DNA of 64,000 nt from positions 248,001 to 312,000 of the forward strand of contig NZ_JAPYRE010000001.1 of assembly GCF_029936995.1 (NCBI RefSeq), written 5' to 3'. The translations under genes were made by a program, and so were the position numbers. Source of the DNA: Henriciella sp. Its GTDB lineage: Bacteria > Pseudomonadota > Alphaproteobacteria > Caulobacterales > Hyphomonadaceae. Shown one piece after another: positions 21,425 to 42,304 of this stretch. The stretch's first letter is position 1, and each line of letters begins with the position of its first letter. Below the pieces are notes generated by a model, which did no database searches, had not been told where the DNA came from, and saw nothing but the letters and a program-made list of their open reading frames with translations.

Positions 21425-21514
21425 TTTCATACTCCTGTTATCGTCAGGATAAACGCCAGCCGGGCCGGGGTGTTCCGGCAAGGCCATCTGCGAATCTGTA
21501 GGGAAAAGGTGGAG

Positions 21515-21845
21515 GCTTCTGTTGCCAGGCGCCTCCGGGCCCCGCCTGAGGCGCTGATGCCCCAGGAGTTAAAAGTTCGGTTTACCTACCGACCGCTTAC
21601 GCGGCCATCAGTTCACCTTCAGCAAAGTTGTCATTGGCAACTATGTTGAAATGAGCTTCTAACGGAGCTCGGCCGGGCGAAAGCATCGTCTTTACACGTC
21701 CGTCGATCCTGTTTCGGCCCCATAATCCGTCCAATGAACGGGAAAATTGGTGGAGCCGCCGGGTACCGCCCCCGGGTCCGAACCGCTTATTACACGTGCG
21801 TTTATCGCCATAGTCCCCGAAAGGACAATTGTAATATAGGTGGAA
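21515..21845 (-). ncRNA. ssrA: Transfer-messenger RNA, circularly permuted two-piece form
   Basis: tmRNA that rescues stalled ribosomes and adds a degradation tag. On the minus strand the acceptor piece comes first and ends in an encoded CCA at 21750-21748; the coding piece begins GGGGCCGAAACAGGATCGAC at 21721. The seven bases GGGGCCG pair fully with CGGCTCC (21758-21752), including the G3-U70 wobble that marks alanine acceptors, with discriminator A at 21751. The 26-base linker between the pieces (21747-21722) would be removed in processing. The order acceptor-linker-coding is the permuted arrangement known from alphaproteobacteria. The outer boundaries are estimates; a GCGCCTC/GAGGCGC stem at 21529-21554 lies near the 3' end. 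Confidence 0.93.
21597..21638 (-). other. Proteolysis tag frame of tmRNA
   Basis: The resume codon GCC at 21638-21636 opens a 13-codon frame reading ANDNFAEGELMAA, ending TAA at 21599-21597. With the alanine carried by the tmRNA itself the tag is AANDNFAEGELMAA, 14 residues. It shares AANDNFAE with the Caulobacter tag and ends in the Ala-Ala needed for ClpX recognition. Confidence 0.95.
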
Positions 21846-21875
21846 ACCCTGCTGCCTGAAAGGGGGCAGTTGCGA

Positions 21876-37020: not shown

Positions 37021-37953
37021 ATGATGAGACCTGCAATCCTGATCCATGGGCCAACCGCCAGCGGCAAGACAGACCTCTCCATTCAGATTGCCCGAAAGAT
37101 CAATGGCGAGATCGTCAATGCGGATTCCATGCAGGTCTACCGCGAATTGAATGTCATCTCCGCGCGCCCCAGCGAAGCCGAGATGGATGGGGTGGCGCAC
37201 CACCTGTTCGGACACGTCCCGGTCAGCGAGAGGTTTTCCACCGGCGAATGGCTGGAACAGGCGCGTCCGGTCATCGAGGATATCCAGAAGCGCGGCAAGA
37301 CGGCTGTCGTGGTTGGCGGTACTGGGCTTTACCTGCTGGCGCTGACACAAGGCCTGTCGGAAATCCCGCCCGTGCCGGAGGAAACCCGGCATGAGGTTCT
37401 CGAGATCGCCAAGGCGGACGGGGTGCGCGGTCTCAAGATCCGGTTACAGTCGGTCGACCCGGACGCGGCGGCCCGCATTGACGACAATGACCGTCAGCGT
37501 CTTTCGAGGGCCTACGAGGTCTGGCTCGCCACGGGCAAACCGCTCACGAGCTTCCAGAACCAGCGCTCCAAGCCGGTCCTCAACAATGATGAATGGCTGG
37601 GTGTCGCCCTGACGCCGCCGCGCGCCAAACTCTATGCCCGCATCGACAAGCGCTTCGAGGGGATGCTCATGGAGGGGGCTATGGAAGAGGCGCGAAAGCT
37701 GGTCGCCCTCGGCATCGATCCCGAGCTTCCGGCGATGAAGGCCCACGGCATGCCGTGGCTGTCTGCCTTCATTCGTGGCGAGATAGATGCAAACACCGCG
37801 GCCGAGAATGCCAAGCGCGATACGCGCCGCTATGCCAAGCGGCAGTTTACCTGGATCGGGCGGCAATTTCCGTTCTGGCCGCGTATTCCGTCTGCGGAGC
37901 TTTCCGTCCGGATGAGGGTTGTTTCTGCCCTTTACAAGGAGGTTGACCGCTAA
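37021..37953 (+). CDS. miaA: tRNA dimethylallyltransferase
   Basis: Prenylates A37 of tRNAs reading U-starting codons, 310 residues. The P-loop is HGPTASGKTDLSIQI, followed by IVNADSMQVYRELNVI and HHLFGHVPVSERFS. The later GTGLYLLALTQGL and the C-terminal RRYAKRQFTWIG stretch are diagnostic. ATG 37021 or 37024 starts it. In enteric bacteria the modification affects attenuation at leader peptides, an interesting link with the ilv leader directly downstream, though only proximity supports it here. Confidence 0.95.
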   Translation: MMRPAILIHGPTASGKTDLSIQIARKINGEIVNADSMQVYRELNVISARPSEAEMDGVAHHLFGHVPVSERFSTGEWLEQARPVIEDIQKRGKTAVVVGGTGLYLLALTQGLSEIPPVPEETRHEVLEIAKADGVRGLKIRLQSVDPDAAARIDDNDRQRLSRAYEVWLATGKPLTSFQNQRSKPVLNNDEWLGVALTPPRAKLYARIDKRFEGMLMEGAMEEARKLVALGIDPELPAMKAHGMPWLSAFIRGEIDANTAAENAKRDTRRYAKRQFTWIGRQFPFWPRIPSAELSVRMRVVSALYKEVDR

Positions 37954-37997
37954 GCTGAGGCAGGTTATGCCCCATTTGCGATTTGGAGGAAACAGCC

Positions 37998-38039
37998 TTG
38001 CGCCAGCAGAAGGTCGTCGTACTTATTGGTCACCCGTGA
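37998..38039 (+). CDS. Leader peptide of the ilvBNC operon
   Basis: Thirteen codons starting with TTG, preceded by GGAGG with a spacing of eight bases. The peptide is MRQQKVVVLIGHP, containing a run Val-Val-Val-Leu-Ile, the three branched-chain amino acids whose synthesis the downstream operon serves. The stop TGA lies at 38037-38039, inside the first arm of a long hairpin. This is the design of ribosome-mediated attenuation leaders. No annotated protein is expected from databases because of its size and TTG start. Confidence 0.8.
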   Translation: MRQQKVVVLIGHP

Positions 38040-38104
38040 CTGACATCTGAGATGTCGGCACGGGTGCGTATGGAAGGGTCTCAAACGAGGCCCTTTTTTC
38101 TTTT
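38031..38104 (+). terminator. Attenuator hairpins before ilvB
   Basis: First hairpin 38031-38066: CACCCGTG pairs with CACGGGTG and, inside, GACATC with GATGTC around TGA. Second hairpin 38074-38095: AAGGGTCTC, loop AAAC, GAGGCCCTT, followed by a T-run (38094-38099 then TTTT), an intrinsic terminator 40 bases before the ilvB start. A possible antiterminator pair is TGAGAT (38048-38053) with GTCTCA (38078-38083). Arrangement of the pause, terminator and antiterminator is inferred. Confidence 0.85.
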
Positions 38105-38145
38105 CAGGTCGCAGGAAAAACGAAAACGGATTGAACGAGACAGTC

Positions 38146-39924
38146 ATGGATACCCAGACCCTTACAGAGACAGATACCGATGCCCGCCAGATGACCGGCG
38201 CAGACATCGTCATTGCTGCGCTGAAGGAGCAGGGGGTCGACGTAATGTTCGGCTACCCTGGCGGGGCGGTGCTACCGATCTATGACGCGATCTATTCAGA
38301 ACCCTCGATCCGCCATGTGCTGGTGCGCCATGAACAGGGCGCAGGCCATGCCGCGGAAGGGTATGCCCGTTCGACGGGAAAGTGCGGCGTGGCGCTCGTC
38401 ACCTCCGGGCCGGGCGCGACCAACATGGTCACGCCGATCACTGATGCGATGATGGATTCCATTCCGATGGTGGTCATTTCCGGCCAGGTCCCGACCCACC
38501 TGATTGGCACGGATGCCTTCCAGGAGTGCGACACGGTCGGTATCACGCGCTGCTGCGCCAAGCACAATTACCTCGTCACGGACGTGGAAGACCTGGCGCG
38601 CACGGTTCATGAGGCCTTCCTGATCGCGACCTCCGGACGGCCCGGTCCCGTGGTCATCGACATTCCGAAAGACGTCCAGTTCTCGACCGGGACCTATATC
38701 GGCAAGGAAGGCGTCTACAAGCCGACCTACCAGCCGAAGACCGAGCCTGCCCCGCAGGCCATTCGGGATGTGCTGGAGTTGATGAAGACGGCGCGCCGGC
38801 CGCTCTTCTATACAGGTGGTGGCGTCATCAATTCCGGGCCGGAAGCTTCGACCCTGCTGCGTGAACTTCAGGCCGCGACCGGCTTTCCCGTGACCTCGAC
38901 ACTCATGGGGCTCGGTGCGTTCCCGGCAAGCCACCCAGACTGGCTCGGCATGGTCGGCATGCACGGGGCCTATGAAGCGAACAATGCCATGCATGATTGC
39001 GACCTGATGATCTGTATCGGTGCGCGCTTCGATGACCGGGTGACGGGCAAGATTTCTGCCTTTTCGCCTGGCTCGAAAAAGGTCCATATCGACATCGACC
39101 CGTCTTCCATCAACAAGATCATCCGGGTGGACGTGCCGGTCGTTGCCGATTGCAGGAATGCCATGCAGGCCATGCTCGATGGCTGGAAAGAGATGGCGGG
39201 CGAGACGCCGGACCTGTCGGGCTGGAAAGCCCAGATCGATACGTGGCGCGCGCGCGACTGTTTCGCCTATCCGCCGAATGAGGGCTCGATCCGTCCGCAA
39301 TACGCCGTCCAGCGCCTGTATGAGCTGACAAAGGCCCGCGATACCTACATCACGACCGAGGTCGGCCAGCACCAGATGTGGGCGGCACAATACTATCACT
39401 TCGAGGAACCGAACCGCTGGATGACGAGCGGCGGGCTCGGCACGATGGGCTATGGCCTTCCCGCAGCCGTCGGTGTGCAGGCGGCCCATCCAGACAGCCT
39501 CGTCATCGACATTGCCGGGGAGGCTTCCGTCCAGATGGTGATGCAGGAAATCTCCACCGCCGTTCAGCACAAGCTGCCCGTCAAGATCTTCATCCTCAAC
39601 AATGAGTGGATGGGCATGGTGCGTCAGTGGCAGGAGCTTCTGCATGGCGAGCGCTATTCGCACTCATACTCGGAAAGCCTGCCGGACTTCGTGAAGCTCG
39701 CGGAAGCCTATGGCGCGCATGGCATCCAGTGCAGCGAGCCGGGTGAACTCGACGCGAAGATCATCGAAATGATCGACCATGACGGGCCGGTGATCTTCGA
39801 CTGCCTGGTCACGAAGGCGGAGAACTGCTTCCCGATGATCCCGTCGGGCGCGGCGCACAATGAGATGATTCTCGGTAGCATCTCCGGGGATGAAATCGAC
39901 GAGGAAGGCCGTAAGCTGGTCTAG
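38146..39924 (+). CDS. ilvB: Acetolactate synthase large subunit
   Basis: Thiamine-diphosphate enzyme catalysing the first common step of Val/Leu/Ile synthesis; 592 residues from ATG 38146. Visible are [16 protein letters not shown] with the substrate loop, [18 protein letters not shown] carrying the catalytic Glu, [19 protein letters not shown], and [19 protein letters not shown]. The thiamine-phosphate motif that is usually Gly-Asp-Gly/Ala reads IAGEASVQM here, with Glu in place of Asp (codon 39520-39522). The terminal part includes [16 protein letters not shown]. First gene of the attenuated ilv operon. Confidence 0.95.
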
Positions 39925-39952: not shown

Positions 39953-40504
39953 ATGAGCCGCGAACCGATCCCTGCAAGCGCCTATGACATGGACCATGAG
40001 GAGGAAGCCGAGGAGCGTCGGACCCTCGCCGTGCTTGTCGACAATGAACCGGGTGTACTCGGCCGTGTGGTCGGGCTCTTCTCCGCACGCGGCTACAACA
40101 TCGAGAGCCTGACGGTGGCCGAGGTGGATCGCGACAAGCACCGCTCGCGCATCACCATCGTCACCACCGGCACCGCCCACATGCTGGAGCAGATCGAGGC
40201 ACAGCTGTTGCGGCTCGTGCCCGTGGCGAGCGTCATCGACATCACGAAGTCGAAGCGCGGCATCGAGCGCGAGCTGGCGCTGGTCAAGGTCGCCGGGACC
40301 GGGGACAAGCGCGTCGAGGCGCTGCGCATTGGTGAGATCTTCCGCGCGCACGTCATCGATACGACGAATGAGAGCTTCATCTTCGAGGTCACCGGCACCT
40401 CGGAGAAGATCGACCAGTTCAGCGAACTCATGGACCCGCTCGGGCTTGTAGAAGTCAGCCGCACCGGCGTGCTGTCGATCAAGCGCGGCAAGGAGGCGGG
40501 ATGA
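39953..40504 (+). CDS. ilvN: Acetolactate synthase small (regulatory) subunit
   Basis: Regulatory subunit giving valine feedback control and full activity, 183 residues. AAGGAGA is 9-10 bases before ATG 39953. The N-terminal ACT domain is ERRTLAVLVDNEPGVLGRVV followed by FSARGYNIESLTVAEVD, and the C-terminal domain begins after KSKRGIERELALVKV. It ends in TGA overlapping the ATG of the unknown gene (ATGA at 40501-40504). The symbol ilvH is equally used. Confidence 0.94.
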   Translation: MSREPIPASAYDMDHEEEAEERRTLAVLVDNEPGVLGRVVGLFSARGYNIESLTVAEVDRDKHRSRITIVTTGTAHMLEQIEAQLLRLVPVASVIDITKSKRGIERELALVKVAGTGDKRVEALRIGEIFRAHVIDTTNESFIFEVTGTSEKIDQFSELMDPLGLVEVSRTGVLSIKRGKEAG

Positions 40505-41010
40505 ACGATGGTAAAATGACGGCTCTACTTTCGAGCTACAGACCAGCAAATTCTTTGGCGCTTAGCCTCTTTTCGATGACCGAAGCCGTTTTTCCGGCTG
40601 AATGGAACAATGAGGTATCGGAGCTCTTTGTGCGTGACTTGGTTTCGTTTTCAGTCCACGCGAGGCGTTTGGTTCAAAATACCAGTTTGAAAAACGAACA
40701 ACTCATTGTTGAGCGCCCATACCATAATCCTCAGTACACGCGACAAGTGAATTGGCTTGATCGGTTCGATTTCGCAACCAATCGGATCATTCACTACGTT
40801 AATCTTGAGGTCGACTATGTCGAAACTGTTCAACGGCAGCGTTTCAAGGGCACGACGAGAAATCACGCTCCTTTTTCAGTTCGCGTCACCACGAAAGATT
40901 TTCCTGAGAAAGCAGACATCAACGTCAATGGAATGGCGTTGGTATTTCTCACCAACATCAAACCATTTTTGCAAAGTTCATTCCCCGCATTGGCGGGCAT
41001 CAAGGAGTAA
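40501..41010 (+). CDS. Hypothetical AT-rich gene inserted between ilvN and ilvC
   Basis: A 169-residue protein that I do not recognise. Its ATG overlaps the ilvN stop (ATGA), with AAGGAGG at 40490-40496 as ribosome site, and its stop lies six bases before ilvC. By hand count it has about 46% GC (235 of 510 bases), against about 60% or more in the flanking ilv genes, and uses rare codons such as TTT, AAA and ATA-type ones. Segments include LSSYRPANSLALSLFS, VNWLDRFDFATNRIIHYVNLEV and KADINVNGMALVFLTNIKPF; no membrane helix and no known motif are seen. The downstream SD of ilvC (AAGGAG, 41002-41007) is embedded in its last codons. It looks like an acquired gene that was fitted in frame into the operon. 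Confidence 0.78.
   Translation: MNDGKMTALLSSYRPANSLALSLFSMTEAVFPAEWNNEVSELFVRDLVSFSVHARRLVQNTSLKNEQLIVERPYHNPQYTRQVNWLDRFDFATNRIIHYVNLEVDYVETVQRQRFKGTTRNHAPFSVRVTTKDFPEKADINVNGMALVFLTNIKPFLQSSFPALAGIKE

Positions 41011-42304
<1,294 letters not shown>

Follow-up and report, generated by a model that had tools for sequence, protein, structure and literature searches.

In Caulobacter crescentus the ilvBN operon is described, in PMC4117421 citing Tarleton 1994, as being under leader control by attenuation, in the sense that shortage leads to read-through. An 'ilvB leader peptide' of alphaproteobacteria was treated in 2005 as an earlier finding (PMC1273637, which cites Vitreschak 2004). For S. meliloti, a 2008 source names an 'ilvIH cis regulatory' element (PMC2573895). 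In S. meliloti, rnTrpL and peTrpL of the trp attenuator are reported to act in trans (PMC10117765, PMC7298713).

We analysed a window of 64 kb, by which we mean the whole stretch of DNA. The genome to which it belongs measures 3.4 Mb, and by ilvB its closest named relative is Henriciella algicola (Hyphomonadaceae, 86 % identity). Between miaA and ilvB there are 192 nt, and these enclose a leader ORF and two hairpins. They very probably (a probability of roughly 0.87) constitute a transcription attenuator that responds to the ribosome and controls the ilvBN(C) operon, of the kind known from alphaproteobacterial ilvB/ilvI leaders. The leader ORF, its start, its codon run, the first hairpin (H1), the terminator, their order and the gene context are shown by comparison of sequences and are as follows.

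37021-37953, miaA, upstream of ilvB.
37943-37970, plus strand, putative promoter (TTGACC at 37943-37948, 16-nt spacer, TTATGC at 37965-37970), overlapping the 3' end of miaA.
37985-37989, plus strand, leader Shine-Dalgarno GGAGG, recognised by sequence, 8 nt before the TTG.
37998-38039, plus strand, leader peptide ORF MRQQKVVVLIGHP of 13 codons, with TTG at 37998-38000 and the TGA stop at 38037-38039.
38013-38027, plus strand, control codons GTC GTC GTA CTT ATT (Val-Val-Val-Leu-Ile), read from the sequence.
38031-38066, plus strand, hairpin H1, -26.7 kcal/mol, z -5.3, with the leader stop codon in its 5' arm.
38073-38103, plus strand, intrinsic terminator GAAGGGTCTC AAAC GAGGCCCTTT followed by a T-run; hairpin 38073-38096, -15.5 kcal/mol, z -3.7.
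38146-39924, plus strand, ilvB, acetolactate synthase large subunit by NCBIfam profile match, the putative regulated gene.
About 39959-40504, plus strand, ilvN, 3' of ilvB.
41017-42036, plus strand, ilvC, 3' of ilvN.

A first-pass annotation, made from the letters of the DNA, had described most of this arrangement. Its GGAGG, eight nucleotides, TTG and 13 codons were right to the base, its long hairpin folds in the window as in all relatives examined, and its terminator stem with T-run is conserved. The terminator does lie just upstream of ilvB as it had proposed, although the distance given there as 40 bases is 49 nt from the end of the stem to the ATG. This ATG at 38146 is kept in relatives, with a TTG at 38131 as the other possible ORF start. 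The calls of ilvB, ilvN and ilvC rest on NCBIfam NF006581 (1070 bits) and on NF008864/TIGR00119 and TIGR00465, matched over their cut-offs. A 169-aa ORF situated between ilvN and ilvC (40501-41010, plus strand) has neither a Pfam nor an NCBIfam match, and no homologue of it was found in 50 related genomes; its appearance is that of an orphan insertion within the ilv operon. Elsewhere in the window, a permuted (two-piece) alphaproteobacterial tmRNA gene was recognised at 21508-21865 on the minus strand with 266.6 bits.

The putative promoter was not picked up by a generic sigma-70 scan; among 33 Hyphomonadaceae loci, a pattern match recovered it with unchanged spacing in 24, and in most of the loci missed by the pattern TTATTG can be recognised by eye at the same place. 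Transcription is expected to start near 37977. GGAGG or GAGG ahead of the leader start is kept in most Hyphomonadaceae. The start codon itself is TTG in the subclade of about 14 genomes to which the window belongs, while sister genomes carry at the same position, mostly after GGAGG, either ATG (MRPTVVLVIRHLR) or GTG (VRPTIVLVIKHL, VRTSLVLVIRHP). Since three start codons exchange at one position, there is good sequence evidence that TTG 37998 is the real start of a putatively translated leader, as the first-pass annotation had held in calling the start non-ATG. The comparison of leaders in related genomes, which it had suggested as a check, shows that the peptide and its run of Val, Leu and Ile codons are kept through these swaps. 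Peptides such as MKNFAVILVVGRRMGRMV are found in the leaders of Rhizobiales.

The occurrence of such leaders was surveyed in 110 ilvB/ilvI loci, 30 from whole-genome relatives and 80 from public genome contigs, which provided 108 usable upstream regions. To satisfy the rule, an ORF had to be 8-25 codons long, to have four or more Val/Ile/Leu within 6 codons, and to be followed by a terminator 15-60 nt past its stop. Of the 108 alphaproteobacterial upstream regions 91 qualified, and of 540 copies made from them by dinucleotide shuffling 0 did; in the 64 kb window, searched on both strands, the site before ilvB was the sole match. The combination of leader and terminator before ilvB is beyond chance, and this provides strong comparative evidence for the earlier assignment to attenuators with a Val/Leu/Ile leader peptide. 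With a slightly looser rule, the element was also present in five more Hyphomonadaceae genomes and in 6 of 9 genomes from the order's other families, where ilvB is 66-73 % identical (L117-L127 with the leader, L128-L130 without). No leader was found in six sampled loci with a distant ilvB of 43-46 % identity (L131-L136). Loci L128-L136, representing ilvB upstream regions in other families of the order, are without such a leader peptide and terminator, mostly where ilvB is the 43-46 % version; these lineages may regulate ilvB otherwise.

The choice of codons within the leader peptides was compared with an expectation from each genome's own ilvB usage. Across 81 distinct leaders, whose counts are not independent because the leaders share descent, GTA was seen 88 times against 3.8 expected, CTT 55 times against 7.5 and ATT 61 times against 15.7, while CTG (10 against 70.6) and GTC (30 against 99.8) were depleted. 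The bias is present separately in Hyphomonadaceae and in other alphaproteobacteria, and it is confined to the leader frame, with counts in the three frames of 67, 4 and 0 for GTA, 47, 4 and 2 for CTT, and 49, 3 and 3 for ATT. Near the start of ilvB itself, taken as a control, GTA occurred 11 times against 3.6 expected, a far weaker bias than in the leaders. GTT, CTA, ATA and TTA show no enrichment in the leaders, therefore the effect is not a plain A+T preference. ATT and ATC are normally read by one tRNA, and a preference for ATT would need slow wobble reading and not selective charging. The branched-chain control codons are rare synonyms in these GC-rich alphaproteobacterial genomes, a tendency that agrees with the theory of Elf and Ehrenberg, in which control codons are chosen for sensitivity (PMC1183508).

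The structural part of the leader is conserved too. The whole leader folds with z -3.0, and some folds extend the base of H1 by pairing UCGUAC (38017-38022) with GUAUGG (38068-38073). H1 was seen in every Hyphomonadaceae leader examined, with the stop codon inside its 5' arm, and its mean z in 63 leaders of other alphaproteobacteria is -3.2. Among 15 leaders, most of the seven outer pairs were found to change on both sides with few mismatches, through exchanges of the types C-G/U-A, G-C/A-U and the like. These pairs were taken from individual folds; an RNAalifold consensus and a model built on a MAFFT alignment were set aside because H1 was misaligned between clades. The terminator core GGGTCTC...GGCCCTTTT is kept in nearly all Hyphomonadaceae leaders.

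In the leader folds, no switch of the classical kind could be recognised in the window. The first-pass annotation had proposed that a ribosome stalled at codons 6-10 favours read-through, and had suggested folding with a ribosome footprint as a check. Equilibrium folding with a footprint set on each control codon does not bear this out: the terminator probability in the window stays at 1.00 at every ribosome position, and in all 28 leaders it is 0.97 or more. This measure proves little, because a genuine antiterminator acts while the 3' arm of the terminator has yet to be transcribed, and therefore transcripts cut before that arm were also folded. In the cut transcript of the window, pairing of the terminator 5' arm with upstream sequence was 0.36 with no ribosome, 0.00 with the ribosome at Val6-Val8, where its footprint stops short of H1, 0.01 at Leu9, 0.12 at Ile10 and 0.45 at the stop codon. 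The same measure gave, for the free, stalled and stop states respectively, 0.04, 0.83 and 0.03 for E. coli trp, 0.30, 0.73 and 0.00 for thr, and 0.11, 0.51 and 0.00 for leu. The cut-transcript test does not discriminate E. coli his, and parts of the test leave ilvL and ivbL unresolved; since a thermodynamic test misses the his switch as well, failing to detect an antiterminator is not proof of its absence.

Comparable results were obtained across the class. The segment from the apex of H1 to the terminator loop folds worse than its shuffled versions, with mean z +0.87 in 28 Hyphomonadaceae leaders and +0.81 in 63 other alphaproteobacterial leaders, of which 1.6 % fall below -1. The mean difference in pairing between stalled and stop states is 0.08 for the ilv leaders of Hyphomonadaceae and 0.09 for those of other alphaproteobacteria, against 0.63 for rhizobial trp leaders (eight Rhizobiales, L137-L144, upstream of trpE(G)). 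For this control, terminator loops of up to 16 nt were allowed; loops over 8 nt had hidden six of the eight leaders. The rhizobial trp leaders show a clear antiterminator in the folding test in which the ilv leaders of the same genomes show none. Two candidate pairings were rejected. UGAGAU-GUCUCA, between the H1 loop and a terminator arm, is absent from neighbours such as L004 (CATCATCACATG). In some free-state folds the terminator 5' arm pairs with the Shine-Dalgarno GAGG or with the control codons GUACUC/CUU, but this pairing is weak, varies between clades and is beaten by the terminator at equilibrium. Some rhizobial ilv leaders reach about 0.5 when stalled against about 0.1 without a ribosome, and part of the ATG-started sister clade (L015, L016, L018) shows a weak 2:3 pairing, AGGU-CUUG/CAAG-GUCU, of 0.6-0.77 at Val8/Ile9; by these predictions a classical switch may operate in such leaders. 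For the window leader, a classical antiterminator switch is unsupported by the folding, and in alphaproteobacterial ilv leaders generally the usual antiterminator is apparently missing or very weak.

A working scheme for the attenuator can nevertheless be outlined. Transcription from the promoter at the end of miaA would yield a leader of about 125 nt, on which a ribosome would translate the TTG-started peptide of 13 codons. With charged Val, Leu and Ile tRNAs plentiful, the ribosome would finish and leave, H1 and the terminator would form, and transcription would end near 38100. With these tRNAs short, the ribosome would wait on the Val-Val-Val-Leu-Ile run, partly made of rare codons (GTA, CTT, ATT), and its leading edge, for an assumed footprint of 12-13 nt, would reach or enter the 5' arm of H1, at about 38025-38037 depending on the codon. 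The base of H1 would thereby be held open and more polymerases would read through into ilvB. We infer translation of the leader from the comparisons above, and the opening of H1 would be the cause of lower termination. The polarity, by which amino-acid shortage should lead to read-through, is borrowed from Caulobacter, because the RNA folds of the window show no such switch.

A mechanistic version of the attenuator reading, tentative and rather unlikely as it stands, dispenses with the antiterminator altogether: termination would be efficient only with H1, by itself or in a stack with the terminator, and a ribosome waiting at the last of the control codons would keep H1 from forming. The strong selection on H1 in all groups, the closeness of its 3' end to the terminator, and the lack of a selected fold in segment 2-3, set beside the clear 2:3 switch of rhizobial trp leaders from the same genomes, are consistent with it; however, the terminator would have to be weak when alone, which is an assumption, the weak 2:3 pairing in the ATG-started clade runs counter to it, and nearest-neighbour folding is blind to kinetic, tertiary or protein effects. 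Its generalisation, that alphaproteobacterial ilv attenuators consist of two hairpins only, with ribosome position setting H1 and H1 setting the strength of the terminator, is more doubtful still. If true, such leaders would represent a mechanistic variant of ribosome-mediated attenuation, tuned by the rare codons GTA, CTT and ATT, in genomes that also contain ordinary trp attenuators.

That the terminated leader acts also or mainly as a trans-acting small RNA or small mRNA, like the S. meliloti trp attenuator RNA, is improbable. The trans action of rnTrpL/peTrpL is a precedent (PMC10117765, PMC7298713), and rhizobial homologues are filed in Rfam as sRNA Atu_C8, but the position directly before ilvB/ilvI and the codon content of the peptide favour attenuation in cis. 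A miaA terminator accompanied by a chance ORF can practically be dismissed, for although the terminator lies about 120 nt past the miaA stop and may end miaA transcripts too, a conserved promoter, exchange of start codons, a frame-specific rare-codon bias, a covarying H1 and the shuffled controls all contradict it.

Returning to the attenuator reading, the element in the window is real, well conserved and of an ordinary kind; its start codon, and the lineage in which it occurs, are such that annotation would overlook it. For this genome, the unannotated leader gene and its attenuator are the likely explanation of ilvBNC regulation. The broader implications are that an Rfam 'sRNA' would be the rhizobial form of the ilv attenuator, and that control codons are drawn from rare synonyms class-wide. 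The weak or missing antiterminator raises a testable question, namely how a stalled ribosome prevents termination, and its apparent absence together with the rare-codon design is the point likely to concern specialists.

Comparison with known systems helps to place the element. As in the trp-type attenuators of E. coli and the rhizobial trpL leaders, a short, putatively translated ORF carries a run of end-product codons, a hairpin follows the codons, and an intrinsic terminator stands between the ORF and the first gene; they, however, show a stable 2:3 antiterminator dependent on ribosome position, which was not detected in the window leader. Like the leaders of Vitreschak et al. 2004, as cited in PMC1273637 and PMC2573895, in which a leader peptide and cis element precede ilvB or ilvIH in alphaproteobacteria, the window has a Val/Ile/Leu-rich peptide and a terminator directly before the biosynthetic acetolactate synthase large subunit. 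Of 18 alphaproteobacterial loci scanned, 14 (L072:2834-2953, L055:2820-2940 and 12 others) carry Rfam RF02502 (Atu_C8, 'Rhizobiales sRNA') just before ilvI/ilvB and in the same orientation. Its consensus encodes a Val/Ile/Leu leader peptide of the ILVVG-R-MGR type, and Atu_C8 looks like the rhizobial form of the ilv attenuator and not like a separate sRNA. It shares with the window the place before the same gene, the leader peptide, the long hairpin and the terminator, while the window H1 lacks the rhizobial side hairpin and the end of the peptide differs. The window scores 17.8 bits (E 0.65) against RF02502, short of the gathering score of 50, therefore Rfam-based annotation misses this copy and it is not a formal member of Atu_C8. 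A close described counterpart is the ilvBN attenuator of Caulobacter crescentus (Tarleton, Malakooti and Ely 1994, as reported in PMC4117421), which belongs to the same gene and bacterial class, with tandem Ile/Val codons in the leader and a rho-independent terminator before ilvBN; the window leader differs in its TTG start and its Val-Val-Val-Leu-Ile run. In Caulobacter sp. Root655, the GTG-started leader MRNTMIVLMERPFTA, with GTA CTT ATG, has a layout like that of the window.
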